Shown piece by piece: positions 3,083 to 37,561 of a stretch of 64,000 bases of DNA (position 1 is the first letter of the stretch; each line of letters begins with the position of its first letter). Source of the DNA: Ferribacterium limneticum (GTDB taxonomy: Bacteria > Pseudomonadota > Gammaproteobacteria > Burkholderiales > Rhodocyclaceae); the NCBI RefSeq assembly GCF_020510585.1, contig NZ_CP075190.1:3966001-4030000 (forward strand), given 5' to 3'. The notes below the pieces were generated by a model that made no database searches, was not told the DNA's origin, and saw nothing but the letters and a program-made list of their open reading frames with translations. A program made the translations under genes and the position numbers.

Positions 3083-3094
3083 CCGGAGAACAAA

Positions 3095-11837: not shown

Positions 11838-11838
11838 C

Positions 11839-15944: not shown

Positions 15945-15970
15945 CGCACAGCACCCCACAGGAGAGCGTC

Positions 15971-17302: not shown

Positions 17303-17346
17303 GCAGCCTAGCTCTTTCTTCTATAGCTCTCGTGAGTCGTGCCCCT

Positions 17347-17901
17347 ATGAAACTCCGATGGATATGCGTCTTTTGTGGCGCCCGCGCTGGCGTGTCGGAG
17401 CGATACACGGCTCACGTTAGGGAGTTCGCGCAAGCGATTGTCCATCAAGGAATTGGGCTCGTTTACGGTGGCGCTAGCGTTGGGCTGATGGGAACGCTCG
17501 CAGATGCAGTGCTGGCTGCAGGTGGTGAGTGCATTGGTGTTATCCCTCAGGGCTTGGTTGAACAGGAGATTGCAGACCCGGGGCTCACACGCCAGATCGT
17601 CACGACGTCCCTATCAGAGCGTAAGGCATGTATGACGGAGCTGTCAGATGCGTTTGTTACATTACCCGGCGGAGCGGGCACGCTGGACGAACTCTCTGAA
17701 TTCTGGACGACTGCGCAGCTTGGTTTGCATAGGAAACCGATCGGGATTCTGAATTCAGAGGGTTACTTTGATTTTTTGCTACGGTTTTTCGATCGCGCCA
17801 TCGCGGATGGATTCATAGACGCACGAGATCGAGAGTTGCTCTCGGTAGAACGTACTTCGCAAGCCTTGCTTGACGCGCTAGTGCGGCAAGCGTTGGACTA
17901 A
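17347..17901 (+). CDS. LOG-family (TIGR00730) nucleotide 5'-monophosphate phosphoribohydrolase
   Basis: 184 residues from ATG 17347 (a GTG five codons earlier is the alternative). Family motifs GLVYGGASVGLMG and LPGGAGTLDELSEFW (the PGGxGTxxE signature) are intact, with the conserved ERK of SERKACM between them. Members cleave N6-modified AMP (cytokinin ribotides) or other nucleoside monophosphates into base and ribose phosphate. It stands alone, 30 nt past the first start codon from the receiver gene. Confidence 0.88.
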   Translation: MKLRWICVFCGARAGVSERYTAHVREFAQAIVHQGIGLVYGGASVGLMGTLADAVLAAGGECIGVIPQGLVEQEIADPGLTRQIVTTSLSERKACMTELSDAFVTLPGGAGTLDELSEFWTTAQLGLHRKPIGILNSEGYFDFLLRFFDRAIADGFIDARDRELLSVERTSQALLDALVRQALD

Positions 17902-19856: not shown

Positions 19857-20996
19857 TTAAATCAAGGTAAGCTGATCCATATCTGGCTCCGCCACCGGGA
19901 GGCAGTTATCAAGCCAACTTCGATCATTATGAAGCAACCAATGAAAACTTCGATAATTTTGCTTGGTAAAACCCAGACGTGAGTGAGCAGGGTTGCTTGT
20001 TATGTAAGCAAGACATTTTTCCCTATATCGCTCTTTCACATTCCTAGCATCCTGTTCCTGTCTGCGCGGATCATGGATGCGGTCCTGAACTGATCTCCCA
20101 AGAGCCTCAACCCATTTGCAACGCTCTGCCACAATGCGCCAATGGCCAAACAATGCGCATAGCAGTAGGGCCCGCCCAAATGCCATACCCTTCGTCGGCT
20201 CGCGAATACTATTTACGATCTGACGGATAATTCCCAAGCACTCTTTTGAAAGTTCGAGTCGAACGTCATGGAATATTCTTGGAATCAGGGACTCAAATAG
20301 TTCACTGGCTCGGAGCAAACCTTTGCTATTCAGAAATTTCCGCTCCCACAAGCCCTCCAGTAGAGCCTGCCCCACAAGGCCTTGGCGCGGTCGTGCTTGT
20401 ATCAACAGCGCGTCCGAAAACACCGCCAGTTCCATTTCAAAATGATCATTCCATACGACCGGCAACTCAACTGCGCGGTCATCTGGGAAGTCACCTGGCA
20501 GCGGAAATGATTGATGTAACGCCGCCCGTTTGACCACTGCTCTTTTCAGCCGGTCACCATGGATCACGCAACGATGAAGGATTGGCAGCTGATGCGTACG
20601 GTGCCAGTAAGCCACGCCACCGCATTCGATATCCGATTCACGGCATGACGGGCAAAAGCGTAACTCCACTACCCCAAAGAATGTTAGCTCCCCAAGGGAA
20701 ATACATTCCTCGCCAAGGACTAGCGACTTCCACGCCTGATCCTCAATCTCCCCCAAGCTTCGCCTAGCGCTAAATGCAGTCAATCGCTCCAACAGGTTTT
20801 CCGGATCGCCATAGGCATTGCCAAGACGAAGGCAGAAGTCGGGCAGGTTCAGCTTGGCATCAATAAATGATGGGCACCGCTTCAAACCCAAAAGGTGCTC
20901 AGCAACCTCCCGAAGATCATTCACTCCATTGAGTCGTCCCAGTCGAGCCAAGACACTGACGAACAACTCATCAGGCAAAGGAACGGGCAGCAGCAT
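19857..20996 (-). CDS. tniQ: TniQ/TnsD-family target-selection protein (first copy)
   Basis: 379 residues. The N-terminus (LPVPLPDELFVSVLARLGRLNG) is the usual TniQ opening. A zinc-binding segment follows: FCPSC, then the YWHRTHQLPILHRCVIHGDRL block with CxxH. Such proteins choose the target site and pass it to the TnsC ATPase. The gene lies 6 nt after the unknown gene 21003-22205, so the two form an operon. With two TniQ genes in one element, each may serve a different target pathway. Confidence 0.88.
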   Translation of the reverse strand: MLLPVPLPDELFVSVLARLGRLNGVNDLREVAEHLLGLKRCPSFIDAKLNLPDFCLRLGNAYGDPENLLERLTAFSARRSLGEIEDQAWKSLVLGEECISLGELTFFGVVELRFCPSCRESDIECGGVAYWHRTHQLPILHRCVIHGDRLKRAVVKRAALHQSFPLPGDFPDDRAVELPVVWNDHFEMELAVFSDALLIQARPRQGLVGQALLEGLWERKFLNSKGLLRASELFESLIPRIFHDVRLELSKECLGIIRQIVNSIREPTKGMAFGRALLLCALFGHWRIVAERCKWVEALGRSVQDRIHDPRRQEQDARNVKERYREKCLAYITSNPAHSRLGFTKQNYRSFHWLLHNDRSWLDNCLPVAEPDMDQLTLI

Positions 20997-22924: not shown

Positions 22925-23821
22925 ATGAGAACCACCAAGCGGTTCACACCACAAGTCCTGCAACGATTTCACCGCCAGGGCCGCGGCCTTGGCACCTTCA
23001 CCGATTACATTGCCTGGCACTGTGTCAGCCGCGGCGACCCGTCTAGCCGCGGCCGCTCACATCTGCAAATGTGGCAAGACCGGCAACGCGACCTATTAAG
23101 CGACCATGAGTGGGTCATTTTGTTTTTCATACTGATGCTGCTCAACCTGATCGACGTACGCGAGCAGTTCCCACTCTCTCTCGAAGAAGCGGCGCACGAA
23201 ATGGGGGCCTACCTGGTAGACGCCGGCGATCAACGCTTTCCCGGCACACAGGCAATCGCTCGGAAATTGGGTATCCGACACCCCATCACCTCTGAAGGGA
23301 AGGAATCGGCAGACTGGGTGATGAGCACCGATTTTCTCCTCGCGCTACGAACCGAGGCCGGCGCCATCGAACTGTTGGCCATTGCCGTCAAAACTGAAGA
23401 GGAAGCCCGCCACAAGCGAAAAAGGCAACTACTGGCGATCGAGCGTGAATACTGGCTGACTCGTGGCGTCACCTGGTTGCTGATCACCCCGGCGCTCTAT
23501 GACGCGGACGTTGGCCTGAACCTGCGCATGCAAATGCCGTGGATGCAGGGCGATCCGGCACCAGAATCTGCCCAACAGATGGCCGCAGAATCTGTGCGAA
23601 ATTTCCCTGGCCGTTCACTGACTTACATCCTCAATCAGTTAACACTCAAGTTGGGTGAAATCGACCTGGCGCAACGTGCATTCTGGCAAGCCGTCCTTAC
23701 TGGAAAGATTCGCATGAAACTTCGGCGCGGTTGGCGACCACACCAGCCTGTCATTTTGCTGCCGGAAGCCGACTTTGTCGCACAAAACCCCATCGCATCG
23801 CGGAGGTCAGCATGGATCTGA
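22925..23821 (+). CDS. tnsA: TnsA endonuclease
   Basis: 298 residues. Restriction-endonuclease-like catalytic region: SDHEW gives candidate Glu62, ADWVMSTDFLL gives Asp136 and AIAVKTEEE gives Lys156. The DVREQFPL strand that TnsA proteins share lies between the first two. A C-terminal helical region (ALTGKIRMKLRRGW) should contact TnsC. TnsA cuts the 5' ends of the transposon so that it moves by cut-and-paste. It overlaps tnsB by 10 nt. Confidence 0.88.
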   Translation: MRTTKRFTPQVLQRFHRQGRGLGTFTDYIAWHCVSRGDPSSRGRSHLQMWQDRQRDLLSDHEWVILFFILMLLNLIDVREQFPLSLEEAAHEMGAYLVDAGDQRFPGTQAIARKLGIRHPITSEGKESADWVMSTDFLLALRTEAGAIELLAIAVKTEEEARHKRKRQLLAIEREYWLTRGVTWLLITPALYDADVGLNLRMQMPWMQGDPAPESAQQMAAESVRNFPGRSLTYILNQLTLKLGEIDLAQRAFWQAVLTGKIRMKLRRGWRPHQPVILLPEADFVAQNPIASRRSAWI

Positions 23822-26037
23822 TCCACAACGCCTCGTTCCGTATCCTGGATGGAAAAGATACTGGCATTTATCGGGTCGTACTTGACGAGATACAGATCGG
23901 GAAGACGGCCGTTGTTCGCCTCGACCCCCCTGAGGAATCGCGCAAAGCTAAAGGAGGTCGCAAGAAGCTTGCCCAGACCAAGAACAAGCGGAAAAAAGCC
24001 CCACCCCTCATGCTTGGGGAAACCCTATGGCTGGATCGCAATGAGTTGCAGGCACTTAAGGAGGGCGTAGAGATCACTTTGATCGACATCGAGCAGGAAA
24101 ACTACGCACTTTCTCCCGCAGACGAAGCAGTCTTTGAATACCGGAAATCACAGATGGCCCCTTTTCTGGATTTTGATCATTTCCGGGAAATGGTCCTGAT
24201 CCACAAAGGCATTGGCGGCTTGGTAAATGAGGTTGTAGCCAGCGGGTGCAGTGAAGCTTTTGTCCGAAAAAATTACTCGCTGCTCTGCCGGTATGGATTC
24301 ACGGAATCCAGCCTGCGCCCTAACCGTAGCAGCAAATGCGGCGCGCCCAACGTAGCCCGTCCTTGCGACCCCGGCGGCCGCAAAAAGGCTGGGGCGAAGA
24401 CCATCGAGGAAAAGGTTGCGCTCGCCTATGGACAGGTTGTTGCGCCGGAACAACCTGGCATGAGCAGCATGTGGACAACGGCCATTTTGGCTGCCGACAA
24501 ACGCATTCCCAGCCCAAAGCCGCCGATGCCCGAGCGCTGTAAGCAAATCGTCGAAAGCGCCTTTATCACCCGCTACCGACAGGTCGATGGCAAGCTCGAA
24601 CTGATTGAGCCCGCGTTAGGTGACTATCCCAATGCACGACAGATCAGACGGGTTCTCACGCGTGAAATTCCACGGCTTCAGCGTTTGCTGGAAAAAACAA
24701 CCAAGGGATATTTCGCCCGCAGTTTGCGCGGCCTGATTGGCCGCAACTGGAAAGGCGTTGTCGGCCCAGGACATACCTGGGCAATCGACTCCAGCATCGG
24801 CGACATCTACCTTCGATCAAGCGTAAATCGCGCGTGGATCATTGGCCGACCCATCGTCTACATCATTGTCGACATCTGGTCGACTGCCATCGTTGGCTTT
24901 TATGTCTGCCTGGATGGCCCTTCTTGGGCCATGGCGAAAGTTGCCCTGTTCTGCGCGACGGCTGCACCTGAACTGATTGGTGAACTCTGGGGCTACGAGG
25001 TGATGCCCTCCCTCTATCCGGCTCCCACCATGTGTGCGGCCCTGCTTTGCGACCGTGGGGAGTACCTCTCCAAGGCAGCCAAGATTACCGGGGCTAAACT
25101 GATTCCCTGCATGAGCTATGCACCGCCCTACCGCCCCGACCTGAAGGGTCTGGTCGAGGTCATCCACCGGATCGAAAAGGATCAGCAGTATTACTTCGTT
25201 CCCGGCGCCATCGATCAGCGCAGGGTTGAATTTGAGCTCAGGCAGTTTGATCCGACCAAGGCGGTACTGACCATCCCGGAATATGTCGCCTATCTCTATC
25301 AGATATTCACCACCTACAATCTGACAGCACCGCGCCAAGGCCGCCTGGATGCCCATATGGCTGCCGCAGGCGTTTTTCCCAGCCCGGCCGGACTGTGGCG
25401 CTATGGCCACGAAGTCGGTATCGGCGTCCGCCGGAATCTGTCGTTCTCGGAGTTGGTGACCAACTTGCTGCCCACCGAGCCGGCTCATGTCACCCGACGC
25501 GGCGTCATGCTGCTCGGTATGCAATACGAGTCACCGACGGTCGACGAGCAGCAGTGGACAGCGCTGGCCCGCAATTTTGGCGCTTGGGACATCCAGGCAA
25601 ATTACTTCCCCGGCTCAGTCTCACGCATCTGGACGCCGGCACCTGCCAGTACCGGTCTGCTTGATCTGCATCTGTCGGATAATTCGACCGCCTCCCCAGA
25701 ACTGACCTTCGACGAGGCGATCGATGCCTTCACGGTCGGCAAACTTGGAAACGCGCAAAACGAGCATATTCGCCTGATGATGGCTCTGGAATCACGGCAA
25801 AAGGCCATGGACATCATCGCTCGCGCCAAGGAACTCACAGCCGAGGCCATCCAGAAGCATAGTGGCACGATGCCGAGCATCACTGAGGCCCGCAGCCTCG
25901 AATCGGCCATTTTTATGACAACTCCCGACGCTGTTCCACCGCCTGACCAGAGTGATGATCCGGCACGCGCCGCCCACCAAAAAATGATGAGCGCCCTGTT
26001 CGCAGCGGCCAACGCCGAAGGAGCTACTCATGAATGA
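23812..26037 (+). CDS. tnsB: TnsB-type DDE transposase
   Basis: 741 residues from ATG 23812, which has GGAGG 6 nt upstream. RNase H-like integrase core: Asp326 in WAIDSS, Asp414 in LLCDRGEY and Glu449 in GLVEVIH, giving D-D(34)-E spacing. The N-terminal part carries the DNA-binding domains that recognise the end repeats; a long helical C-terminus ends in the region that binds TnsC. It cuts the 3' ends and joins them to the target. Overlaps tnsC by 8 nt. Confidence 0.92.
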   Translation: MDLIHNASFRILDGKDTGIYRVVLDEIQIGKTAVVRLDPPEESRKAKGGRKKLAQTKNKRKKAPPLMLGETLWLDRNELQALKEGVEITLIDIEQENYALSPADEAVFEYRKSQMAPFLDFDHFREMVLIHKGIGGLVNEVVASGCSEAFVRKNYSLLCRYGFTESSLRPNRSSKCGAPNVARPCDPGGRKKAGAKTIEEKVALAYGQVVAPEQPGMSSMWTTAILAADKRIPSPKPPMPERCKQIVESAFITRYRQVDGKLELIEPALGDYPNARQIRRVLTREIPRLQRLLEKTTKGYFARSLRGLIGRNWKGVVGPGHTWAIDSSIGDIYLRSSVNRAWIIGRPIVYIIVDIWSTAIVGFYVCLDGPSWAMAKVALFCATAAPELIGELWGYEVMPSLYPAPTMCAALLCDRGEYLSKAAKITGAKLIPCMSYAPPYRPDLKGLVEVIHRIEKDQQYYFVPGAIDQRRVEFELRQFDPTKAVLTIPEYVAYLYQIFTTYNLTAPRQGRLDAHMAAAGVFPSPAGLWRYGHEVGIGVRRNLSFSELVTNLLPTEPAHVTRRGVMLLGMQYESPTVDEQQWTALARNFGAWDIQANYFPGSVSRIWTPAPASTGLLDLHLSDNSTASPELTFDEAIDAFTVGKLGNAQNEHIRLMMALESRQKAMDIIARAKELTAEAIQKHSGTMPSITEARSLESAIFMTTPDAVPPPDQSDDPARAAHQKMMSALFAAANAEGATHE

Positions 26038-27325
26038 CCCGAAGCTTTTTGATCCTTATGCAGGAAATATTCTCGTCCAACCGCTCGGCCCCATACTGGA
26101 TCGCGCCCAAGCTACACAATGCCTCAGTTTTATGCCACCTCGCCCGCGCGATCCGGGCAAGGTGCCGAAGCACCTCAGGATGCATTACGTCATCCAGTTG
26201 CGCGACATTCATGTTGCCAGCCTGGATGGCTTGCGGGTTCAGGAAACAATCGATTTGATGCTCAGGGATGGTTATCGCTACAAGGATCCGTCTGCTACGC
26301 ATACTTGGAGCGTGATCGGCGGCGAGGCAATGTGCCACAAGACCCCAAGGGCGCCCGCCATGGCAGCTGTGATCGTCGGGCACTCGGGTACCGGGAAAAC
26401 CCAGGCAATTCTCCGGGCGCTCGATCTTGGCCCCAGCCAGGTGATCGAACACCCCTGCTTTCCCAAACTGGTTGGGAAGCACCAGCAATTGGTCTGGTTG
26501 TCAGTCGATGTCCCCTCCAGCGGGCGGGCCGACGATCTTGCCGCCAATTTGATGAGCAGCTTCGATGCCGCAATGGAAAAGCACGTCGCCGGCTGGCAAA
26601 ACCGTTTCACGGCAAGCCTGGCAAAGAACCGTCGCGATGGCCAGAAAATGCTCGACGAATGGCGGCAGGTGGCCTCGGCCCATTTCCTCGGGGCACTCCA
26701 CCTTGACGAAGTTCAGAACTTCTTCAAGTTGCCCACCTTGAAGAAGCGTCGCACCAAATCTCCCGATGCCGCCGAACTCCAGCTGAGCATCATCGAGGAT
26801 CAGTGTCTCAAATGGATCCTGACCCTGACCAACACGTGGCAGATTCCGATCATTTTGTCCGGCACACCCGATGGCGTTGGCGCTCTCATGAAGCGCTTTG
26901 CCAATACCCAGCGCTTTGTCGGCGGGGGTTACCACGTTATTCCGCCCTTCCAGTCAGCCGACGATCCGTTGTTTTTTGACAGTAAAAACCAGGGGGGCTT
27001 TCTTAATGCAATCGGCCTATACCAGTTTGTCGCCACGCCCGTGAAAATCGATCGGGAATTCGCTAGCCTAATCCTCGAACTGACGGGTGGCATTCCCCGT
27101 CTGATCATCGCATTCTGGGTCGCCGCCCATCGTGTTGCCTTCGAACGCGATGACGACAGTCTTCGTGCGGAGGATTTTAGGCGGGCCGGAGATACCTATC
27201 TGGCACCGGTCAAACCGGCTGTTGCCGCCCTGCGAAGCAAAGACCCAAAGCTGATTTCCCGCTATGAGGACCTGATGCAGCGCGACGACAATTTATGGGC
27301 GTCCTTCTGGGCAGCGATGCGCTAG
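26030..27325 (+). CDS. tnsC: TnsC-type AAA+ regulator
   Basis: 431 residues. Walker A is VGHSGTGKTQ (about 116-124) and Walker B is ALHLDEVQNF (about 222-231). A sensor motif follows in PIILSGTPDGV. TnsC forms ATP-dependent filaments on target DNA chosen by TniQ and activates TnsA/TnsB. Its 3' end overlaps the convergent tniQ2 by 4 bp. Confidence 0.92.
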   Translation: MNDPKLFDPYAGNILVQPLGPILDRAQATQCLSFMPPRPRDPGKVPKHLRMHYVIQLRDIHVASLDGLRVQETIDLMLRDGYRYKDPSATHTWSVIGGEAMCHKTPRAPAMAAVIVGHSGTGKTQAILRALDLGPSQVIEHPCFPKLVGKHQQLVWLSVDVPSSGRADDLAANLMSSFDAAMEKHVAGWQNRFTASLAKNRRDGQKMLDEWRQVASAHFLGALHLDEVQNFFKLPTLKKRRTKSPDAAELQLSIIEDQCLKWILTLTNTWQIPIILSGTPDGVGALMKRFANTQRFVGGGYHVIPPFQSADDPLFFDSKNQGGFLNAIGLYQFVATPVKIDREFASLILELTGGIPRLIIAFWVAAHRVAFERDDDSLRAEDFRRAGDTYLAPVKPAVAALRSKDPKLISRYEDLMQRDDNLWASFWAAMR

Positions 27326-28770
27326 CGCGGAAACGCTTGAGCAAGCTTGAAGGGATACTTCCCGGGGGGTGAAGCGCCCTCCGGGAGGCCTATCTGACTT
27401 AAATGACGCCTCACGCATTTCTTTTGTGGTGCGAATTTGAACTTGATTCCTGCCTCGGAGCCACTCAGCTCATGGGGATTCAAGGCTTTTGGACGCTGCC
27501 CGCGAGACCCTGGCCCTATCTCGGAAGGTACCATCACAATACGCTTCATCGCCCTAATGAAAGACACCCCAATCTGACGCAGGAGATCAAGCAGTTGTTC
27601 GACCGTCAGTCCGCCCGCTTTGGCGCTCTCGTCGATACTGTTTTGCTCAAAATAAAAAGCATGGAGCGATACCAGGGCACCTTTGCTGAGCGCCGGCAGA
27701 CCAAGCCCTTTGAGTCTGAGTGCAGCAGTGCGCTCTCCCAAACCAACGACCCGCGCACTTTTCGAATGGGATCCTCCGGCCATGACATAAGCCTCGATCA
27801 ACTCGCTATCAGTTACCTCTGTCACCTGGCATTGGTCAACGCTCCCCGTACGGCCGAAATCAGATGACTGCGCGGCCACCAAGGCCAACAAAGCCTCATC
27901 TGCCGTATCGAAAAGTTGTGCTGCAATCAGCGCATAATAATGCGCCAGCGATTTTCCATTCTTGGCCAGAATATGGCGATCGATGCTCGGAAATTCGGCC
28001 CCGGGAACTTTAGCGGCCAGAATAGGGCAAAGGGTAGCCAACCACTGGCTCCCAAATGATTCAACAATACGGTCGCTGAGCCAAGGCCTATCCGTTTGTC
28101 CCGGTCGCGTAGCAAATCCCAATGCCCGCGCCTTCTCCCGAAAGACCCGGGAAGCCACCCCGGAATAGATGGAAGGAGTCTGCTCGGCCAAGCCGGACCA
28201 AATCTCGAAGAAACGCTGCTGCAATGGGTTTTGCATGGCCAACCTGACCCATTCGTCACGCACCTCAAATGCTGTTTCGAGGAAAAACGAAGGTGGCTTT
28301 AGCCAGGCATTGTCCGAGTCGACATAGCCCAACCCGCAGTTATGTTTGACACACAGGAGTTGTCCCGGCAACTGGTGTTGACGACGCCAATAGCTTTGAC
28401 CATGGAAATCGATGTCCTCGCCCACACATTCCGGACAAAAATAGGCAGCGGTACGCAATGCCTTCATGCCTTGGGACCACAGCAGCGAGCGATGCGACCA
28501 GGATTGCGCATCCTGGTCACGGTGCAGCGAGACAATCTTCCGGTACGGCAATAACGTGTGGTGCCGAAGGAATGCCAACAAATCGATTTGCGCCGCCGAT
28601 GCCAATAACTCAAGCGCCGCATGCTCACGACGACTGACGGCTTCGCTGCCCACAAAACGCCGCAACATCATGCCAATTTGCACTTCATCGAGCAGGCCGT
28701 TGTACTGACCAATACGGCCAAGATAGCCACGTGCTATCTCATCCGGCAAGAGGGCAGGAACAACTAACAT
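27322..28770 (-). CDS. tniQ: TniQ/TnsD-family target-selection protein (second copy)
   Basis: 482 residues, longer than the first copy. The same opening (VPALLPDEIARGYLGRIGQYNG) and zinc-binding block are present: YFCPECVGEDIDFHGQSYW, then HQLPGQLLCVKHNCGL. The C-terminal 150 residues (two-helix repeats around VMAGGSHSKSARVVGLGERTAALRLKGLG) look like an HTH region that could read a specific attachment site, as TnsD does. It lies 2 nt after the 28773-29111 HTH gene. Confidence 0.9.
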   Translation of the reverse strand: MLVVPALLPDEIARGYLGRIGQYNGLLDEVQIGMMLRRFVGSEAVSRREHAALELLASAAQIDLLAFLRHHTLLPYRKIVSLHRDQDAQSWSHRSLLWSQGMKALRTAAYFCPECVGEDIDFHGQSYWRRQHQLPGQLLCVKHNCGLGYVDSDNAWLKPPSFFLETAFEVRDEWVRLAMQNPLQQRFFEIWSGLAEQTPSIYSGVASRVFREKARALGFATRPGQTDRPWLSDRIVESFGSQWLATLCPILAAKVPGAEFPSIDRHILAKNGKSLAHYYALIAAQLFDTADEALLALVAAQSSDFGRTGSVDQCQVTEVTDSELIEAYVMAGGSHSKSARVVGLGERTAALRLKGLGLPALSKGALVSLHAFYFEQNSIDESAKAGGLTVEQLLDLLRQIGVSFIRAMKRIVMVPSEIGPGSRGQRPKALNPHELSGSEAGIKFKFAPQKKCVRRHLSQIGLPEGASPPGKYPFKLAQAFPR

Positions 28771-29111: not shown

Positions 29112-29425
29112 GCATTAAGTATTACACAATCGATATTTACATATCAATAATCTGATCATCGCCATTTCGTTTTACCGAGGAAATCAGCGGCAAATTTTGA
29201 ACTGGTGCTGATGGCTGCCTTGGACGATTTAAAGCACTCCCAAACCCACGCAATCTAAGGAGTTCATGCTGCTAATGCTTGGCTGGAACTCCTCCTTTCG
29301 GTCACTGCTGAAAATTTGCTAGCTACTGTGAGAATTCATAATTGAACTGCAAATCAACATTAAAATGCGGTACATTTACTGCATTTTTACATGATATATA
29401 CAGTATAAATACTGTACAATTTGGT
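29112..29425. other. 314-base intergenic stretch between HTH and RHH genes
   Basis: No gene seen. It holds a hairpin with 8-bp arms AGGAGTTC (29258-29265) and GAACTCCT (29286-29293), loop 20 nt, and the operator described next. It is AT-rich near the RHH gene, consistent with divergent promoters. Confidence 0.4.
29399..29416 (+). promoter_or_regulatory. Palindromic operator upstream of the RHH-NADAR pair
   Basis: TACAGTA (29399-29405) and TACTGTA (29410-29416) form a perfect dyad with a 4-bp centre, ending 9 nt before the RHH start codon. It resembles an autoregulatory antitoxin operator. It is not a LexA box, in which the half-sites are in the opposite order (CTGT-N8-ACAG). Confidence 0.6.
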
Positions 29426-29635
29426 ATGCCTAGAGGAAAGCCAAAACTTAAAACGGTATCGATGACGTTTCGAGTCGAACCACGCGTAAAGAAAGCCGCT
29501 GAGGTGGCCGCGAAGCGCGACCGAAGGAGTCTGACGAACTTTATTGAGGTTTTGGTTCTTGAACACTGTGAATCCGTCGGGATTGACCCCGATTTGCTTC
29601 ACTCAGAGGAGATTAAGAATGCCGAAGACGTCTAA
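29426..29635 (+). CDS. Ribbon-helix-helix-like small protein
   Basis: 69 residues. The N-terminal VSMTFRVEPRVKKAAEVAAKRDRRSLTNFIEVLVLEHC pattern is that of an Arc/CopG-type RHH: one beta strand, then two helices. ATG 29426 is preferred to an in-frame TTG at 29342 because the palindrome lies between them. It overlaps the NADAR gene by 17 nt. Probably an autorepressor and possibly an antitoxin. Confidence 0.7.
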   Translation: MPRGKPKLKTVSMTFRVEPRVKKAAEVAAKRDRRSLTNFIEVLVLEHCESVGIDPDLLHSEEIKNAEDV

Positions 29636-30188
29636 CTCGCGAAGTAAACCCCTTGAGCTCACGGTGAGAGTAACTGGCACGACAAATGACGAGATTCGGT
29701 TTTATCGGGCAAATGAAAAGCCCTATGGTGTGTTCAGTAACCTATTTAGGCGCGCCATCACATTTGAGGATGTGGAATACCCGACCGCAGAGCATGCATA
29801 TCAGGCAGGGAAAGCACGAAAGGAAGCGGTTCGAGATTGGATTTTGAGCGCTCCCAGCCCATCGCTTGTAGCCATGGCAGCTCACGGGCTTTATACGTGG
29901 GATATCGCGCCAAACTGGTCAAAGACAAAATTCGCCAGAATGAAGGGAGTATTGCTGGCAAAGTACACTCAGCATGACGACCTTAAGCAGCTACTGCTAA
30001 GTACAGGAGATGCTCGCTTGGTGGAGTCTGCGACCGTCGATAACGCGGTCAACCGTCTGTGGGGCGAGGTCAACGGCGTTGGGAAAAATATGCTTGGAAC
30101 GTTGCTAATGGAGGTTCGTGAGGAGATCAGGCAACTCGAACTCCAAGAGGAGGCATCTAATTCAGCTCGTGAGGGGCTTGCAGCATAG
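29619..30188 (+). CDS. NADAR (YbiA/DUF1768) family protein
   Basis: 189 residues from ATG 29619, with AGGAG upstream inside the RHH gene. Family motifs: FYRANEKPYGVFSNLF, then VEYPTAEHAYQAGKA, AMAAHG, and WSKTKFARMKGVLLAKYTQ. NADAR proteins are N-glycosidases of ADP-ribose-like or riboflavin-pathway nucleotides; some remove ADP-ribose from DNA as antitoxins to DarT. Here the partner is an RHH gene and no DarT is visible. It converges with and overlaps the PfkB gene by 27 bp. Confidence 0.85.
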   Translation: MPKTSNSRSKPLELTVRVTGTTNDEIRFYRANEKPYGVFSNLFRRAITFEDVEYPTAEHAYQAGKARKEAVRDWILSAPSPSLVAMAAHGLYTWDIAPNWSKTKFARMKGVLLAKYTQHDDLKQLLLSTGDARLVESATVDNAVNRLWGEVNGVGKNMLGTLLMEVREEIRQLELQEEASNSAREGLAA

Positions 30189-31271
30189 GTTTATCGCCCA
30201 TGCCCCCGCGGCGTCGCGGGGGGCTGGTAACGGGGAGCTAAAGCGAAGATAGGTTTGAAAGTCTTCGGAAACGGGAGGCCAAGCCGAATATAAGCTGCCG
30301 TTGAATAAATCAGCATCAAGCAATTGAGCCAATCTGGCTTTCACAAAATCTTCGTTCAATAGCCTAGCAAGCCCGCGAGCCCCCGATTGCATGCAGTTCA
30401 ACGCAGCCAACGCTTGGCCATAACGCAAAGCGCTAGTTAATTTTGGCGGTGACTTTTCCTTAACGCCGGCCTTCGCGCTCAGGTAATACAGAAAACCTGC
30501 GGTACACCAGTCACCAGCCCCTGCCGTATCTGCGACATTCGAGACTTTCAGAGCATCCAAGGAATACCAGGCTTGCTCGCCACAATTGGGAAGTCTGAAG
30601 CGCAAGCCTTCTGCTCCAGCTGTTTGTATTTCGACATCAACCATATGCCGATCAAAGGATTCCAATTGATCGATGCGGTCATCTGCATACTTCAACACGT
30701 TACAACAACGTATTGCTTGCTGGAACGCCGCGTAGTCGGTGCCAATGGTCGATGGTTCGAACATGACTAAGGCTCCCCGCTGACGATAGGCTTCAGCAAG
30801 AGTAAGCGCCCACGGTGTAACTCGATCAAAGTAGAACACATCTGTGGAGTTGATCTGCTCCAGGACATGCATACAGAATGTTGTATCGCTACCCGGCACA
30901 AAGTTGCGCTTGGAGCCACAGAAAGGGCATGAGAAGCTGAATTTGTGAGTTCTCTCTCCATCCCCTGGCCATTGATAGACAATCGGCGTGGCCGCTGAGT
31001 CCTCTTGGGCGATAAATCGAGTGTCAGCGTTGAGGGAAGCAAACTCTCCCTTGATGCGTTGGGCTGCAGAATCTTTGCCGAGCCTGGCTACCGGAACCGC
31101 AGACCATCCGAGAAACGCAAGAATAGCCAAAACATTGCCTGTAGAACCTCCAAGAGCGGTATCCGTAGGCTGGCTATGTTCGTGAATGAGGACGTCTAAG
31201 GCTACCAGGCCTGTCCCAACAACTCGGGGAGCCTTCTGCACAGCATCCGCGTTATAGTTGTGAGTTCTCAT
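30162..31271 (-). CDS. PfkB-family carbohydrate/nucleoside kinase
   Basis: 369 residues. ATG 31271 is chosen because GGAG lies 6 nt upstream. The substrate-binding LGGSTGNVLAILAFLGW and the C-terminal signature DTAGAGDWCTAGFLYYL, with its catalytic Asp in GAGD, are intact. An unusual insert carries a CPFCG cysteine pair, perhaps a metal or redox site. Members phosphorylate sugars or nucleosides with ATP. It is the last gene of the five-gene operon and overlaps its upstream neighbour by 20 nt. Confidence 0.85.
   Translation of the reverse strand: MRTHNYNADAVQKAPRVVGTGLVALDVLIHEHSQPTDTALGGSTGNVLAILAFLGWSAVPVARLGKDSAAQRIKGEFASLNADTRFIAQEDSAATPIVYQWPGDGERTHKFSFSCPFCGSKRNFVPGSDTTFCMHVLEQINSTDVFYFDRVTPWALTLAEAYRQRGALVMFEPSTIGTDYAAFQQAIRCCNVLKYADDRIDQLESFDRHMVDVEIQTAGAEGLRFRLPNCGEQAWYSLDALKVSNVADTAGAGDWCTAGFLYYLSAKAGVKEKSPPKLTSALRYGQALAALNCMQSGARGLARLLNEDFVKARLAQLLDADLFNGSLYSAWPPVSEDFQTYLRFSSPLPAPRDAAGAWAINLCCKPLTS
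30202..30224 (-). terminator. GC-rich hairpin in the convergent gene ends
   Basis: CCCCCGCG (30203-30210) and CGCGGGGG (30215-30222) form a perfect 8-bp stem with GCGT loop. It lies within the 3' end of the PfkB gene and just after the NADAR stop. Without a T-run it is a weak terminator candidate for the NADAR transcript. Confidence 0.35.
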
Positions 31272-32349
31272 AAGGCGCTCCGGCAAGCAGGATGTGCCAC
31301 AAGTGGTCAGGTTCCTGTACTTCGACCTTCGATGGGACGGTGGACGAAACATTATAGCTTATCGTTTCCACGTAAAGCATTGGCAGTTCAAGATCGATTG
31401 CGGCCAAGAGCATCCCCAAGCTCCCGATCCTCCACCCGCAAGGTGAGAGCACGGTTATGGCTTTTTGTTCCGTCGCGGTAAACACTTCCTCTCTCGCTGC
31501 CACCATTTTACAAATCGAATTGAAAACATCCATGGGATTCGACTCGTGTGCGTAGATCACGTTCAGATGGCTGCAGTCCCAATCTCCGTGGAAGTCTCTC
31601 TCGAATTCGAACAAGAGTGTGTCACCGCGTCTTGCATTTCTGGATGGGAACGGGACAATCGGACAGACCTCCGCAACGCTGGATGACGATGAGAGCGCTC
31701 GGTACATAAGTTCCATTTGGCTGGATGCACCTTCCGAGAGTTGAGGAACCCATAATTTCAAATTGTCTGCAGTGCTATCCAAGCCCATCGATCGTTGAAA
31801 TCCATGCATCCACTCGGCTCGGTCACTGGATTCCGAAGTTAGCTCTATGCGACGTGCGTCAGAGGAGGCGACCAGCAGGTGGACATTTGCTCTCCTATTG
31901 AGGCCGATCTCGATCGCCTGCTTGACCAGTGGAAAGCACACTCCCCGGGACATCCCCGTAGCATCAATCACGATGTCCGTATAGCCCTGCTTATACCATT
32001 CTGCGGCTCTGATGACAGCATTCCGGCCACCAATTGTTGCGCCATCATCGGCAACAATGTCGACTTCGACGAACTGCACATCTTTGCCAACCGCCTCTTG
32101 CACGTAGGCCTTATGTAATCGACCGATTTCCGACAGCGAGGCTGTTTCCCTACGTTTTTCGACTATTACTCGAATATCAACATTGGAAAACCGCGAAAAA
32201 ATTTCCGCAGGGAAATAAAGGCTTTGAGACTGAATCCCGAGAGTTGAAATGAGTAGCGTTTTCTGAGTGCGAGGAAAGTAGTCCCGAGCAAACTCAAGGA
32301 CATCTTTGCCACTTTGGGCAAAACAACGGTCGGAGGTAAAACGAGTCAT
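31252..32349 (-). CDS. Unknown Rossmann-like protein with a CARF-reminiscent motif
   Basis: 365 residues. The N-terminal half alternates strands and helices (TLLISTLGIQSQSLYF, DIRVIVEKR, VQFVEVDI). DIVIDATGMSRGVCFPLV resembles the D-x-TGG-x-x-x-M loop of CARF-type nucleotide sensors, and the C-terminal half ends with a strand LPMLYVET. The resemblance is in pattern only. The C-terminal half (ITVLSPCGWRIGSLGMLLAAI) looks like a second such domain. The start is an ATGA overlap with the AAA+ gene. Role: perhaps a nucleotide-ligand sensor for the operon. Confidence 0.6.
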   Translation of the reverse strand: MTRFTSDRCFAQSGKDVLEFARDYFPRTQKTLLISTLGIQSQSLYFPAEIFSRFSNVDIRVIVEKRRETASLSEIGRLHKAYVQEAVGKDVQFVEVDIVADDGATIGGRNAVIRAAEWYKQGYTDIVIDATGMSRGVCFPLVKQAIEIGLNRRANVHLLVASSDARRIELTSESSDRAEWMHGFQRSMGLDSTADNLKLWVPQLSEGASSQMELMYRALSSSSSVAEVCPIVPFPSRNARRGDTLLFEFERDFHGDWDCSHLNVIYAHESNPMDVFNSICKMVAAREEVFTATEQKAITVLSPCGWRIGSLGMLLAAIDLELPMLYVETISYNVSSTVPSKVEVQEPDHLWHILLAGAPYENSQL

Positions 32350-34238
32350 TTTGCAACGCTCTCGATCAATTCCGAAAGTGATCCTTCACAAAATCCGCCT
32401 TTACTGAATGTAAGCCCGTTAGCGAGGATGGGAAGCCCCCCAAGCTGGAACAAGCACCAAGTCTTCCGTTTGCACTCGTAGCTCTCGTGTAGCGTGATTG
32501 CGTTATAGGCCAGTGCGTAATGCAGAACGGGAACCAGTTTCCCGCCATCCCTTTGGAAGCGCTCCATATCGGTCTGCGGGATTCCGAAGGCATTTGCCCC
32601 ATCATCCAGCGGCGCGTTTGGTGCGAGAGTCCGTTGCTTGCAACGCTCTACAATGAACTCGATAAGACGTCTCACTTCAGAACTGTGAGGGAAATTCCAA
32701 CTCCGGATTGCTCCTTTGGCTGCTTCAATCAGAATTGAGTTTTGTGCCTTGGCATCTAGATTGGGATCGCGTCCTCTAACAACCCGTGTTTCGATTTGAT
32801 CGACCAAGACACCGGCGAGATGAATGAACTGTTCAATATTCTCTCCACTAGCATCGGCCAAGCACTCGAACGAGTAATAGAAAGGCTTTCCAAACTCATG
32901 GAATAGTTGAAGGGCCGCGCCGTTGATGAGTTGTGAGCCGACATTGCGCGGTTCTGGCAGGGTTTCAGGTGCCGGAGTCTCCGCGGCGAACAGTTCCGCT
33001 TGGGGAGTTCGGCGCATCTCCCGATGTATCAGAATTCGAGTGAGAGCTAGCTTTTCGTCTGCTCCTAAATTTGACGGGATCCACGACCTGATTTGATCCA
33101 ATCGCTCATGAGAAAAGCCTGAGGCCTTTGCTGCCGTCAAAACGCTTTTTTCCAGGTCTTTAAATTGGCCTGCGGTGAGTTCCGGTGATGCGGCAGCAAG
33201 GCAATTGTCCAATTGAACTCCTCGCCGACGTAAGACAGGCATCTGGTCGATATAGCGTCGAGCAATATCTTTGACTGTCGCCCGATATGCCCTTTTCTCT
33301 GTCGCCGCCGTGCCGCGTTGCATTAGCTGAAGAATCCAGTCTCGATCCTTTGTACTTCCAAATTGACCGGATTCCGGCACCTGCAACGCTTTCCGAAGAG
33401 CTTCTGGGCTAACAGCATCTACCCGGGTCATCAACCAACGCGCAACCTTGATCTCACGGTTCTTGAGCCATAAGTCGACTTCGCTATATTGGTCTGGATG
33501 CAATTCATGCGCGTCGTCGACAATGCATAGCGGTCGGAGCGTTAATTCCCCGCCTTGGATTCCAGAAATTTCTGGGACCAAGAAGGATTCAATGATTTGA
33601 AACGCCTCATAGGTAGTTTCTGGACCTGAAGTAGCTAGTTCTCTTTCACTGGGCGGAACTAGGGCGGTAATAATCTTGAAGACCTTTTCCTCGACGGCGC
33701 GTGCATGGGCTCTGAAAGCAAGTGGGTCTGCTGTGCGAATCAAACCGGCCTGAACTTCAGATTGCTCGCGAGCGATGATTCTGATCCGTGCAAGGTCGAC
33801 GCCAACCCCTTCAAGTTTGCGTAGCCAACCAAGAACTGCTCGGGCTTGAATCAAGGAACGCAATAGTCCGTGCCGAATCTTTACCGAATAGGGGAGTTCC
33901 CAGATATTTCTGACGTCCGAAGTTGTCGGCAGGCGGCAGGCAAGAATCTTGGGGCGAGAGTCGGCGAGCATCTCGCATTCGCCCAGTGTCTGAGCCAAGT
34001 CTTTGTGGTCTTTGCTGTGTAAAGACCGGAGAAGAGCAATAACAGTGTCGAATTCAACCAGGCGTGCAATTGACGTTTTGCCACTCCCGGGTGTGCCGAC
34101 GACAGTCACCAGGCGGTCGAAATATGCACTTACGTTGCCCTCAAAGAACCGCCGAAGGGGTTCCGGGCTTAGAACTAATATTAGGCTGGCGGGATCTTCA
34201 AAGTATTCCGTTGCCCGCTTTTTGAAAGGGTTATCCAT
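32346..34238 (-). CDS. ORC/CDC6-like AAA+ ATPase
   Basis: 630 residues. Walker A is TVVGTPGSGKTSIA (about 45-58); Walker B is LCIVDDAHEL (about 238-247). A likely sensor/arginine segment follows (KVARWLMTRVDAV). The long C-terminal helical region is unrecognised. The general form resembles ORC-CDC6-like ATPases that I recall being reported beside phosphoribosyltransferase-like genes in proposed conflict systems. It overlaps the PRTase gene by 8 nt and the next gene by 4 nt, so partners should be made together. Confidence 0.75.
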   Translation of the reverse strand: MDNPFKKRATEYFEDPASLILVLSPEPLRRFFEGNVSAYFDRLVTVVGTPGSGKTSIARLVEFDTVIALLRSLHSKDHKDLAQTLGECEMLADSRPKILACRLPTTSDVRNIWELPYSVKIRHGLLRSLIQARAVLGWLRKLEGVGVDLARIRIIAREQSEVQAGLIRTADPLAFRAHARAVEEKVFKIITALVPPSERELATSGPETTYEAFQIIESFLVPEISGIQGGELTLRPLCIVDDAHELHPDQYSEVDLWLKNREIKVARWLMTRVDAVSPEALRKALQVPESGQFGSTKDRDWILQLMQRGTAATEKRAYRATVKDIARRYIDQMPVLRRRGVQLDNCLAAASPELTAGQFKDLEKSVLTAAKASGFSHERLDQIRSWIPSNLGADEKLALTRILIHREMRRTPQAELFAAETPAPETLPEPRNVGSQLINGAALQLFHEFGKPFYYSFECLADASGENIEQFIHLAGVLVDQIETRVVRGRDPNLDAKAQNSILIEAAKGAIRSWNFPHSSEVRRLIEFIVERCKQRTLAPNAPLDDGANAFGIPQTDMERFQRDGGKLVPVLHYALAYNAITLHESYECKRKTWCLFQLGGLPILANGLTFSKGGFCEGSLSELIESVAK

Positions 34239-35349
34239 GACCGATGTGGCGTTTCTTGCGTGAGAACAGCGGTTTCATTTTGGGGGCTGGCGCTGCCCAT
34301 CTGCTTGTCGACGATGCCCAGAGCAGGGCAACGGAGTTATTGGGTGTGTTGTGGTAGAGGACTAGAGGGAGTCCACCTTGTTTGTAACCGAACCAGATGT
34401 TCTTCCCAACGATGTTGTCCTCGATAGAAGGATCATAGTGATCGGCGAAGAGCTTTACCAATTCAGGTAGGCTGGCGTCATCGATAACAATATCGCTACC
34501 AAGAACATATGAAAACGTAAGTACGAGCTTAAATTTTGGATTTTCGCGTTGATATTGATCTGCGTTGTTAACGGTGATCGAAGACGCCTTATCCGATGAG
34601 AGATAGTGATGAGCGTGAATCCAGCAGCCTTCGGCAATTGCCTTATCTTGACCAGTTCCAACACGGTCCTTATTTTGCCGGCAGAAAGTAGGAATTTTGC
34701 CGCTCCACTCGTTTTCCTCATGTCGAATTAATGTGGTTCCGGAGGCTGTGAAATCATCGAGCAGGCATATTCGTTCAAATAATGCTTCTTCCGCGTTGAA
34801 ACCATTCAAGTCAAGACGCTTCCGAAGCTCTTTGGTGAGTTTCTTCCACTTCTCATCCGATATCTCGCTAGCGGCAACTACCTGCTCATTTGAGACGTGG
34901 CCTTCATTTTCTCGACGGAAGACGTCCGTTTTTGCGCCATCGCTTAGTCCGACGTAAAGCGTTCGTATGCCCATGAGCTTGAGACGTGTTTCTGCTTGAA
35001 CATTTCCCCATGTTTTGTAGTAAGGGAGGCTGAGTTCGGCCGCAACTTGTCGCCGCATTTCCTCCTGAATGGACGGCATAGTTAGGTTTACCAAATGGTG
35101 CATTTCCCTTTGGCAAACATAGATCAGGCGGTTTCGCAGAAAGTTGTATGCCGTTTTCCTGTCTTCTTGTTTGAACTGCCCAATCCAAGCCAGCAGATTT
35201 GCGAAGAAGTGGGCGCCGGGGCTGTAGCCTTGGTAGTGGTCATATTTGGCTTCAACTAAAAGGGCAAGCCAGGAGAACTCCGCTGTTGCTTGGATCTCAT
35301 CCCAGTCCATAAGGTCTGCTAAAAGGCGCATTGCGAGTTTTGCTTTCAC
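34231..35349 (-). CDS. Phosphoribosyltransferase-like protein
   Basis: 372 residues with a GTG start overlapping the SIS-HAD stop (GTGA). The core motif FERICLLDDFTASGTTLIRHE is a PRPP-binding loop (hydrophobic strand, DD, then TxSGTT) as in type I phosphoribosyltransferases. The N-terminal ~150 residues are helical; the later FKLVLTFSYVLGSDIVI strand may complete the fold. It would transfer phosphoribose to or from a base-like acceptor, or sense PRPP. Its fixed AAA+ partner argues for regulation by ATP hydrolysis. Confidence 0.75.
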   Translation of the reverse strand: MKAKLAMRLLADLMDWDEIQATAEFSWLALLVEAKYDHYQGYSPGAHFFANLLAWIGQFKQEDRKTAYNFLRNRLIYVCQREMHHLVNLTMPSIQEEMRRQVAAELSLPYYKTWGNVQAETRLKLMGIRTLYVGLSDGAKTDVFRRENEGHVSNEQVVAASEISDEKWKKLTKELRKRLDLNGFNAEEALFERICLLDDFTASGTTLIRHEENEWSGKIPTFCRQNKDRVGTGQDKAIAEGCWIHAHHYLSSDKASSITVNNADQYQRENPKFKLVLTFSYVLGSDIVIDDASLPELVKLFADHYDPSIEDNIVGKNIWFGYKQGGLPLVLYHNTPNNSVALLWASSTSRWAAPAPKMKPLFSRKKRHIGHG

Positions 35350-37289
35350 AATTGCTTGCCCCCTTTACGCAACGTTTCGCTCAGGCCGTCCATAAGGGTT
35401 GATGAGAGGCACCGTCCTTGATCGGTTCTTTGCAAGGAATTCATATAGAGAAGCGTTCCAGTGACACCTTTGTAGCCGCGTGGCAGTAGATTCCAGCAAG
35501 TGCCTGGAAATGGCGATACGCTATCAACACTCAAACCTAAACCACTGTCCAGAAGTTCAAAGTCGTTACCGTCCAAGTCTCCTGAGTCACCGATTCTGAG
35601 TGTCTCGGTCATCGGATCGGCATTGGCATAGTGTGCGATCGCTCGTACCACGTTTTCTTTACCAACGTTTTCAGTGATCACATCGATTGAATGTCCAGAG
35701 CAGAATACACGCCATCCGTTATGGTTTCCTCGTTGTATCCAATGCCTGATTCCGGCAACGGCACGATGCTTTGCACCAAAGTTTTGCATTCGAAGGCTCA
35801 TCTGGCCCCCGCGATTTTTAGGAGTCGTTTCAAGATTCGCCACAATCCCTACATCCTTGAGCCATTGCTCTAGGTCATCAAAGCGCGGGTCACCCGCAGG
35901 TTCCTCGAACTTCTCGCTATCAAGTGAGGCAATAACGGAACCGCTGTAGTAGCCGATGATGATCTTTGACCACGTGTCCGAACTTAGCTTTTTCCGAAGG
36001 TCGTCATAAAGCGAATCACCTCGCCCGGATGCGAATCCAATGATGGTGCCATTCCGAGCCAAGTCTTCAATTGAGGAAATTAACCGTTCGTCGAGTCCTT
36101 CGTATCGGAGATCGGTATCGCAGAACGTCCCATCAAAATCACAGGCCAGTGCCTTGATGTTGGCATTCCTCAGTCGCTCACAAAACTCGATGGCAGCGGT
36201 TGTCCAAGCGGCCGTCCGATAGACCTGATCAACGTTGCAACGAAGCTTGCGCCGCAACGATATTTGTTCCGAATCTGCCAAAGGGAGCAATTTCTTGACG
36301 TCCAGGGCGTGAATGTTGCGTCCGAAACTGGACACTACAGGTTGCCCAGGATCTCTTTGCTGATGCTGGCCCAGAATGTCAGTTATCAAGATTGCGTCAA
36401 TGACGCTGACCAAGCTTGCCAATATGGGGTCGTTTGGAAGCTCGACTTTGATTATTGGAACCTCCCGGGGAAACAATTCGAGAGTCGAGTCGCATAGCGC
36501 TTTGTCATTGGCAGAATGGAATGCAAGAAAGCAGGGAGCGCTTCGGACCTCGGCGAGTTGGAGGTGGCGTCCATGAGCGAATTGCCTGTAGTCGGTTAAT
36601 TCGCATCCTCCCAGCGCCGACTCGGCAAGTTTGGATTCAATGTCGATAGCGCCAATGCGCCCTACAGTCCCGTAGAGAACTGCAAGCGATTTTCGAGACG
36701 CCATGTGTTCCGACAGACCCTGATCGACTAGATTGGCACGCCGCTCCATCAGCCAATTCCGGTCGACCTCACGTATTTTCTCGATTCCTTTTATCCCATA
36801 AGCTCTGGTGACGAGGATCATTGTTGCAATGAGAGAGTTAGTCGCTAGGTAGCCGTCTTTCCCCCAAGGCATTTGGAAAGATGCAACAGTTGCGGCTCCT
36901 GTTTCTCGGCATTTCGTAGCCAACGGGGTGTTGGGGCGGAGAACGATTGCCAGGCCGGGCAGCTCAAATGATGCGATCCGATCAGCTGCCGCCAAGATGT
37001 CCAGATTCTTTCCTTCGGCGGATATCAGTAGTCCGCTGGCGTTCTCCATCGGACGCTGATGGGCGAGAAACTCTCCTGGCGTGGTACTTCTGGAGAGCAA
37101 GCCAAAACAGGATTCATGCAGCGTTGCAATGAATGCAGCGGCCGTTGAAGAGCCCCCGGAGCCAATTCCAATCAGATTTCTCCCTGACAGGGCAGCGAGC
37201 GAGCGGGTAAGGAACCTGACGTCCTCATCTAGCGCCCACGCTATTGCGTCCGGGATGTAATCAATTTCATCTGAAAATTTCTTGCCCAT
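35346..37289 (-). CDS. SIS-domain / HAD-phosphatase fusion
   Basis: 647 residues. Residues ~35-320 form a sugar-isomerase (SIS) region: GIGSGGSSTAAAF is the phosphosugar-binding loop and a later half (LGGCELTDYRQFAHGRHL) resembles the second SIS repeat of GlmS/AgaS proteins. Residues ~380-620 are a Cof-type HAD: motif I ACDFDGTFCDTD, motif II GFASGRGDS and motif IV RIGDSGDLDGNDFELL. It should isomerise or deaminate a sugar phosphate and dephosphorylate a related product. First gene of the operon. Confidence 0.88.
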   Translation of the reverse strand: MGKKFSDEIDYIPDAIAWALDEDVRFLTRSLAALSGRNLIGIGSGGSSTAAAFIATLHESCFGLLSRSTTPGEFLAHQRPMENASGLLISAEGKNLDILAAADRIASFELPGLAIVLRPNTPLATKCRETGAATVASFQMPWGKDGYLATNSLIATMILVTRAYGIKGIEKIREVDRNWLMERRANLVDQGLSEHMASRKSLAVLYGTVGRIGAIDIESKLAESALGGCELTDYRQFAHGRHLQLAEVRSAPCFLAFHSANDKALCDSTLELFPREVPIIKVELPNDPILASLVSVIDAILITDILGQHQQRDPGQPVVSSFGRNIHALDVKKLLPLADSEQISLRRKLRCNVDQVYRTAAWTTAAIEFCERLRNANIKALACDFDGTFCDTDLRYEGLDERLISSIEDLARNGTIIGFASGRGDSLYDDLRKKLSSDTWSKIIIGYYSGSVIASLDSEKFEEPAGDPRFDDLEQWLKDVGIVANLETTPKNRGGQMSLRMQNFGAKHRAVAGIRHWIQRGNHNGWRVFCSGHSIDVITENVGKENVVRAIAHYANADPMTETLRIGDSGDLDGNDFELLDSGLGLSVDSVSPFPGTCWNLLPRGYKGVTGTLLYMNSLQRTDQGRCLSSTLMDGLSETLRKGGKQL

Positions 37290-37504
37290 CTGCTTTCTTG
37301 GAGGAGGGTATGCTGCCGTATTGTAACTTCCCTGTCGGCCAAGAATGCCAAATGAAAGTAGCTATTGTCGTCTGCCTCTGGTCTGCACGATTCGACGTAA
37401 AAGTCCTGAGCTTGCATGACCGAGTTCTTGATCCCGCAGACGCTGCTTTAACCAAACTGCTACTGGACATAACGGCGACGTCCTTAATCTAAGGACCTGC
37501 TAGG

Positions 37505-37561
37505 GAGTTTTCGACTTTATAAGAGAGTTTGCGACTTTAATGATCAGTTTTCGACATTAAT
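37505..37561. repeat. Three TnsB-like binding repeats at the transposon end
   Basis: Three copies at 20-bp period: GAGTTTTCGACTTTAT (37505-37520), GAGTTTGCGACTTTAAT (37525-37541) and CAGTTTTCGACATTAAT (37545-37561). Read outward, the two inner copies show ATAAAGTC/TTAAAGTC followed by GxAAACT, close to the Tn7 TnsB site core (ATAAAGTCTTAAACT, from memory). The outermost reads TGTCGAAAACTG outward, so TGT with terminus near 37555 is a candidate end. Confidence 0.7.

Follow-up and report, generated by a model that had tools for sequence, protein, structure and literature searches.

Phosphoribosyltransferases (PRTases) are known as retron effectors, as part of a protective DprA pair and, in DS-32, under an anti-phage name. 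In type III-A retrons a PRTase and a winged helix-turn-helix (HTH) protein are associated with a reverse transcriptase (RT) and a non-coding RNA; retron effectors are called toxic in the excerpt of PMC12548924, and those of type III-A are the PRTases. In the excerpt of PMC9122126 (2022) the DprA-PRTase pair confers protection from phages T7 and lambda, and how the retron PRTases act is given as unknown. DS-32, which from its name alone we infer to belong to the 42 validated systems of DefensePredictor (the number is absent from the main text), places a PRTase-CE gene next to a gene for a NADAR protein, and NADARs hydrolyse guanine-ADP-ribose bonds and act as antitoxins (extracts of PMC11125620 and PMC11543638). 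In this study we analysed a 64,000-nt stretch of the genome of Ferribacterium limneticum (contig NZ_CP075190.1, positions 3,966,001 to 4,030,000; hereafter the window), in which a PRTase gene lies in a six-gene module together with genes for a SIS-HAD fusion, an AAA+ ATPase, a CARF protein, a PfkB-family kinase and a NADAR N-glycosidase. The nearest characterised relatives found are the PRTases of retron III-A and DS-32, and by the tests run the module is of the PRTase-effector kind and a member of neither. No description of the six-gene set was found in the literature searched, as far as the extracts go; the existing CARF classification may cover the neighbours of CARF6.

Organization of the six-gene module

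The list of open reading frames (ORFs) places five overlapping genes on the minus strand between 30162 and 37289 (Table 1), and the printed junctions confirm the overlaps described in an earlier, sequence-only reading of this DNA: 4 nt (GTGA), 8 nt (ATGGATAA), 4 nt (ATGA) and, with the PfkB start at ATG 31271, 20 nt. The longest PfkB ORF would overlap the CARF gene by 101 nt instead, and this ATG is plausible because the stretch that homologues have in common with it starts only downstream of 31271. The five genes of the sequence-only reading stand, but the reading had missed the convergent NADAR gene, which lies tail-to-tail with the PfkB gene (27-nt overlap of the 3' ends), as well as the adjoining genes for TnsA-, TniB- and TniQ-like proteins. 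No feature of the module gives a better clue to its chemistry than the overlooked NADAR gene, and on our analysis this gene would make more specific the earlier idea that the cargo makes or edits a ribose-linked nucleotide.

Table 1. Features of the six-gene module and its surroundings (window positions)
Feature	Position	Strand	Remark
Gene 1, SIS-HAD	35346-37289	-	647 aa
Gene 2, PRTase-CE, predicted phosphoribosyltransferase effector	34231-35349	-	372 aa, GTG start
Gene 3, ORC/CDC6-like AAA+ ATPase	32346-34238	-	630 aa
Gene 4, CARF protein, CARF6 type	31252-32349	-	365 aa
Gene 5, PfkB-family sugar/nucleoside kinase	30162-31271	-	ORF open to 31352 (396 aa); ATG 31271 preferred
Gene 6, NADAR N-glycosidase	29619-30188	+	ORF 29544-30188, open from TTG 29544; likely start ATG 29619
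Ribbon-helix-helix-like small ORF, ahead of NADAR	29342-29635	+	read from sequence
TniQ	27322-28770	-	
TniB/TnsC-like	26030-27325	+	PF05621 TniB just below cut-off
ORF in TnsB position	23731-26037	+	no Pfam match
TnsA-like	22925-23821	+	
Second TniQ/TnsD-like gene	19857-20996	-	PF06527 E 1.3e-12, PF15978 E 3.7e-6
Three direct repeats, 20-nt spacing	37502-37560	+	probable right-end transposase sites

Conservation and distribution of the gene set

The set recurs in many loci, so that the grouping is not due to chance. Six family profiles were run on 46 fetched loci, and in the 39 loci of the tally that are not cut by contig ends (38 of the fetched ones plus the window) the PRTase, AAA+, CARF and SIS-HAD genes were each found in all 39, PfkB in 37 and NADAR in 30. 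The system proposed earlier from the letters hung on recurrence of its five genes elsewhere, and recurrence is what the search returned. Left out of this tally as cut by a contig end or incomplete were L002, L008, L012, L024, L035 and L049, together with L057 (decayed), L052 and L033 (a duplicate of L019), while L112-L114 and L093-L110 stand outside the count; L007 was entered with its NADAR gene cut at the contig end. The absence of NADAR was judged on the fetched DNA alone, which for L050 is 1.5 kb on one side. All loci of the tally were selected through the CARF protein and some are near-identical (L015/L016); an independent plasmid search with the PRTase gave 18 records, of which 17 are the CARF records.

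The PRTase, AAA+ and CARF genes are adjacent and in the same order in 38 of 38 fetched loci and in the window, and the SIS-HAD, PfkB and NADAR genes shift around them, giving nine arrangements by presence, order and strand among the 38 fetched loci, 20 of which are identical to the window. NADAR leads the operon in four loci (L013, L017, L036, L056). A mutual exclusion of NADAR and PfkB was considered and rejected as no more than chance: nine loci lack NADAR, two lack PfkB and none lacks both, with 0.46 expected. On plasmids of Sinorhizobium meliloti (L053) and Rhizobium tumorigenes (L052 and its upstream part L111, whose annotation includes genes for NADAR, a HAD hydrolase and PfkB) the PRTase-AAA+-CARF triad is duplicated, the two triads sharing one set of SIS-HAD, PfkB and NADAR genes. 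The paired AAA+ copies differ in the P-loop (GSPGTGKT or GAPGSGKT versus SAPGGGKT), and the second PRTase gene of the Sinorhizobium plasmid is split across two ORFs. In the decayed copy of Rhizobium CC-CFT758 (L057) the PRTase, CARF and SIS-HAD genes are each broken into several ORFs.

A scan of genome contigs with a single-protein query found nothing, whereas the CARF alignment as query retrieved 25 genome loci, with sporadic matches in 6 of 398, 1 of 369 (both including the genome of the window) and 3 of 337 sampled genomes. The CARF protein search found 17 of 72,556 plasmid records, eight of the 17 typed as conjugative, while 50,697 phage records yielded no match; three predicted viral contigs hold four or five of the six genes. 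The hosts include Betaproteobacteria, Pseudomonas, Rhizobiales, Sphingomonas and Sulfitobacter and, distantly, Paenarthrobacter.

Family assignment of the six products

The 372-aa product of gene 2 is a PRTase-CE domain with a loop for phosphoribosyl pyrophosphate (PRPP), as indicated by profiles, alignment and a structure model; the predicted structure supports the PRTase fold and resembles the free-base PRTases. The PRPP loop typical of type I PRTases, [DE]DF.[GA][ST]G, was found in 42 of 42 PRTase copies, reading DDFx[GA][ST]G in 41 and EDF in one. The protein belongs to the PRTase_III-A / PF24390 family and matches PADLOC PRTase_III-A (PDLC02935, E 7.9e-14, a distant match); an interpretation of this label as type III-A CRISPR was ruled out, as the neighbours show that retron III-A is meant.

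Gene 6 matches PF08719 (E 2.8e-27), and the best PDB match of the NADAR family profile is YbiA (2b3w, E 6.1e-30). Residues E82 and K89 are conserved in 26 of 26 sequences and E174 in 25 of 26 (numbering of the ORF from 29547), the correspondence of these E and K residues to those mutated in other NADARs being by position only.

The window AAA+ protein alone reaches 14.9 bits with PF24389 (ORC/CDC6-like), under the 27-bit cut-off, and its assignment comes from the family, 26 of 26 members of which match at E<=0.1 (best 1.7e-29). By eye, PGxGK[ST] and D[DE] could be recognised in all 44 aligned rows, and an apparent loss of Walker A in ten distant copies was discarded, the alignment showing PGxGK[ST] in all. 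The 365-aa product of gene 4 matches the CARF6 profile of PADLOC and its predicted structure has the CARF fold, which we interpret as a single chain of two CARF units, with neither effector nor nuclease domain seen. The top Foldseek ranks of this model (KCC/NKCC1, KaiC, universal stress protein) were rejected at root-mean-square deviations of 17-24, and the VIA ranking was preferred. PDB profile searches for the CARF, AAA+ and PRTase families gave no useful match.

Gene 1 joins a SIS phosphosugar-isomerase-like half (residues ~1-370) to a HAD-IIB phosphatase (~378-600). The HAD half matches PF08282 (E 9.1e-8); no SIS match was found in Pfam, and the SIS assignment comes from PDB profile matches and motifs. 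The family profile detected phosphosugar isomerase 3fj1 (6.2e-8) and HAD protein 3niw (1.2e-5), and the SIS profile also matches deglycase 3eua (E 5.5e-5), other SIS enzymes scoring better. Invariant in 27 aligned rows are GSGGS (43-47), E218, E223 and H239 of SIS and D384, D386, D568 and D576 of HAD. Gene 5 matches PF00294 (E 1.6e-14), its fetched copies carrying G[AS]GD (43 of 43), CxxC (36 of 43) and a C-terminal CC (26 of 43). The PRTase, SIS, HAD and PfkB assignments of the sequence-only reading thus hold, its ORC-like ATPase is borne out at the level of the family, its nucleotide-sensor-like protein turned out to be CARF, and the structure predictions it had proposed for the 372- and 365-residue proteins gave the PRTase and CARF folds.

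Comparison with known systems

PF24390 was over the cut-off in 13 of 299 sampled genomes. Four of these carry the six-gene system (G000, that of the window, G190, G026 and G187), and in five an RVT_1 reverse transcriptase lies next to the PRTase (L096, L097, L098, L100, L101), PADLOC RT_III-A being matched in all three RT neighbours scanned (L096, L098, L101); L099 is a sixth retron-like case by layout only. One genome has an ORC/CDC6–CARF6 triad (L095), and two have NADAR beside the PRTase among Hma genes (L093 by scan, L094 by layout and NADAR match). In L093 (3671-15499) and L094 the PRTase-CE and NADAR genes lie between an HmaA-like helicase gene and HmaB/HmaC-like genes, as if DS-32 had been inserted in a Hma system.

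A plasmid search with the PRTase of L093 found NADAR directly 3' of PRTase-CE in three of three records (Methylobacterium, Klebsiella, Vibrio). All six plasmid proteins, like the pair of L093, score above the cut-offs of the anti-phage models DS32_1/DS32_2 of NCBIfam (NF053875, NF053876), NF053875 being passed by the PRTases of L093, L104, L105 and L106. The Pfam families of the two neighbours are common to DS-32 and the six-gene set, but the DS-32 units seen consist of two co-directional genes, to which the six-gene set adds AAA+, CARF, SIS-HAD and PfkB. Retron III-A shares with gene 2 the PRTase_III-A / PF24390 family, but the retron has RT and multicopy single-stranded DNA where the six-gene set has the AAA+/CARF pair, and a Pfam scan of 27 window proteins found no RVT_1 reverse transcriptase.

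The PRTase-CE–ORC/CDC6-like–CARF6 triads of L095 and L108 (and, by CARF match and gene layout, L109 and L110) agree with the six-gene set in these three families and in their order. In contrast to the six-gene set, no SIS-HAD or NADAR was found in L095, and none is annotated beside L108-L110, for which the gene tables are incomplete and no profile scan was made; L108 has a PfkB gene further off. On the Moraxella plasmid of L108 a PfkB kinase gene overlaps a gene for QueC (7-cyano-7-deazaguanine synthase; 11495-12906), with a triad and an N-6 methylase near.

The toxin-antitoxin pairs DarTG1 (DarT1-NADAR) and YarT-YbiA combine, in the source extracts, a NADAR with a ribosyl-transferring enzyme as the six-gene set does, but their partner is an ADP-ribosyltransferase (ART) instead of a PRTase, and no ART family was found among the same 27 proteins. 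The Ter-linked pathways, to which the sequence-only reading had compared the locus, likewise have PRTase and HAD genes in one neighbourhood (excerpt of PMC7824862); this link was not sustained, no TerB, TerC, TerD or TelA being present among the 27 proteins.

Type III CRISPR systems have CARF receptors (Csm6, Can2, Card1) and CARF ring nucleases, but no nuclease domain was seen in gene 4 and no match to Csm1-type Cas10 (TIGR02578) in the window's genome. PF22335 (Cas10 palm) matched in six of eight system-bearing genomes and was over the cut-off in three (26.1 bits in that of the window, below the 27-bit cut-off); since this model also matches in E. coli, it was discounted as unspecific and TIGR02578 was used instead.

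Proposed function

We give about an even chance to the reading that the module, which is mobile and probably directed against invaders, is a PRTase effector controlled by the CARF and AAA+ proteins, with NADAR as antidote and a sugar-phosphate side branch. Its family assignments, conserved catalytic motifs and conserved gene set are observed. The AAA+ and CARF proteins would form a unit for sensing and gating, by which the PRTase is held back or set free, and the constant PRTase-AAA+-CARF order, kept also in L095 and L108 where no SIS-HAD stands beside it, suggests a gated effector core. As effector, the PRTase may use PRPP or a similar activated ribose to phosphoribosylate a base-like acceptor, either as a free molecule or within a nucleic acid, and the product would poison or signal in the infected cell. 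NADAR, presumably produced in most loci from its own convergent transcript, would hydrolyse the N-glycosidic bond made by the PRTase and serve as antidote or off-switch. As the two proteins come together in two-gene units, in Hma loci and in the six-gene set, three settings in all, the predicted abilities of the one to make and of the other to cut a ribosyl N-glycosidic bond are probably linked. SIS-HAD and PfkB may handle the sugar phosphate, either preparing a non-standard sugar donor or clearing the by-product. The repeated pairing makes the bond cut by NADAR a candidate for the PRTase product, and in this way the module renders the obscure action of PRTase effectors testable and could help to explain a class of defence enzymes. 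It is also a possible case of CARF signalling outside type III CRISPR, and its CARF ligand may therefore be new.

A defence role appears likely from the company of the families, the mobile setting and the defence-model matches among flanking proteins. For 130 flanking proteins from 23 loci, Hachiman, Gabija, TRIP13 and restriction-modification (R-M) models are among the matches listed (25 of 298 families); the scan has no control set and its loci are not attributed, so that it is descriptive.

Several observations weigh against the gated-effector reading. NADAR was not found in the fetched DNA of nine of the 39 loci, with the PRPP loops intact, and is therefore not an obligatory local antidote; of the 30 loci having it (window included), 26 carry it outside the operon on the other strand, and none was found in the surroundings (4-17 kb fetched) of the L095 triad and the six retron-like PRTases. 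L107 has a lone plasmid PRTase. The L095 triad has no SIS-HAD or PfkB match in 16.5 kb, so that a core can do without the sugar step. Neither the PRTase nor the NADAR of the window reaches the DS-32 models, the former with no NF053875 match at E<=0.1 (cut-off 250 bits) and the latter with 61.2 bits against the 240-bit cut-off of NF053876. Csm1-type Cas10 exceeds the cut-off of TIGR02578 in none of the eight system-bearing genomes (two have weak partial matches; no Cmr2 model was run).

This Cas10 result is in line with signal synthesis, an alternative that we regard as possible though rather unlikely, in which the PRTase, SIS-HAD and PfkB would build a nucleotide-like messenger, the CARF protein would be its receptor, the AAA+ protein the invader sensor or the effector, and NADAR would destroy the messenger. 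CARF domains bind nucleotide second messengers, and here the fold comes without an effector domain, and SIS-HAD is present in 39 of 39 loci. It is difficult to reconcile with this scheme that the 16.5 kb of L095 hold the triad with no match to the sugar enzymes, that L109 and L110 look similar by annotation (the plasmid gene tables being incomplete), and that the retron-type PRTases have no CARF match nearby.

Marking of nucleic acid appears improbable. Here the AAA+ protein, if DNA-binding like ORC/CDC6, to which its family is related, would bring the PRTase to invading DNA or RNA for phosphoribosyl marking of bases, and NADAR would erase the mark on the host, as in DarT1-NADAR. NADARs do strip ADP-ribose from guanine in DNA and RNA, according to the source extracts, but the best PDB match of the NADAR family is YbiA, whose physiological target may, in the same extracts, be a small molecule, and the PRTase model resembles the free-base enzymes. 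To our knowledge no PRTase modifies a polymer.

A write-and-repair cycle used as a weapon is a long shot. The PRTase would write phosphoribosyl adducts onto amines, whether of bases or of other constituents of the cell, and NADAR would erase the fresh N-glycoside; Amadori (keto) adducts, which would resist an N-glycosidase, would be phosphorylated by PfkB, deglycated by SIS and freed of phosphate by HAD, the AAA+/CARF pair deciding when writing exceeds repair. The FrlD/FrlB fructosamine pathway, in which phosphorylation is followed by deglycation, is the model for PfkB and SIS.

Equally doubtful is accessory metabolism, a plasmid cargo that degrades or builds an unusual sugar compound with no conflict role, since the sugar-phosphate enzymes SIS-HAD and PfkB and the nucleoside 2-deoxyribosyltransferase, MATE transporter and decarboxylase genes adjoining the Agrobacterium copy stand against a conserved set with no transporter, two PADLOC defence models (CARF6, PRTase_III-A), the sporadic presence in genomes noted above and flanking proteins that match Hachiman, Gabija and R-M models (no control).

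Mobile element setting and neighbouring genes

From the arrangement of genes and repeats, the six-gene module is best read as carried by a Tn7-like element: it is flanked by TniQ/TniB/TnsA-type genes on one side and by the three direct repeats on the other (Table 1). The repeat motif has three matches in the window and none of 100 shuffles reaches three, the pattern being derived from the repeats themselves. The motif occurs three times also in L021 (Simplicispira), where homologues of the TniB, TniQ and HTH genes are present and the cargo is oriented oppositely to that of the window. One repeat-like site was noted at 19582, but it shares its strand with the right-end repeats and so does not establish the left end of the element, which was not found.

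The small ORF at 29342-29635, whose end overlaps the likely NADAR start, has no Pfam match and has a relative in one of the 46 fetched loci (L002), and is probably not a core gene of the module. An Rfam search of the window gave no matches. A LOG/SLOG-type phosphoribohydrolase-like gene (17332-17901, PF03641 E 6e-38) lies outside the TnsA-TniQ block, near genes at 11082-14380 for an NMT1/THI5 protein, a methyltransferase and an ABC transporter.

In Rhizobium CB3060 (L041) the flanks carry genes for GTP cyclohydrolase II and a caspase family protein (3005-3604 and 15031-16485); GTP cyclohydrolase II leads to riboflavin intermediates that are cleavable by NADAR relatives. On the Agrobacterium plasmid (L058, 11346-18959) the genes that adjoin the module, for nucleoside 2-deoxyribosyltransferase, a creatininase-like protein, a decarboxylase and a MATE transporter, look like a small-molecule pathway.

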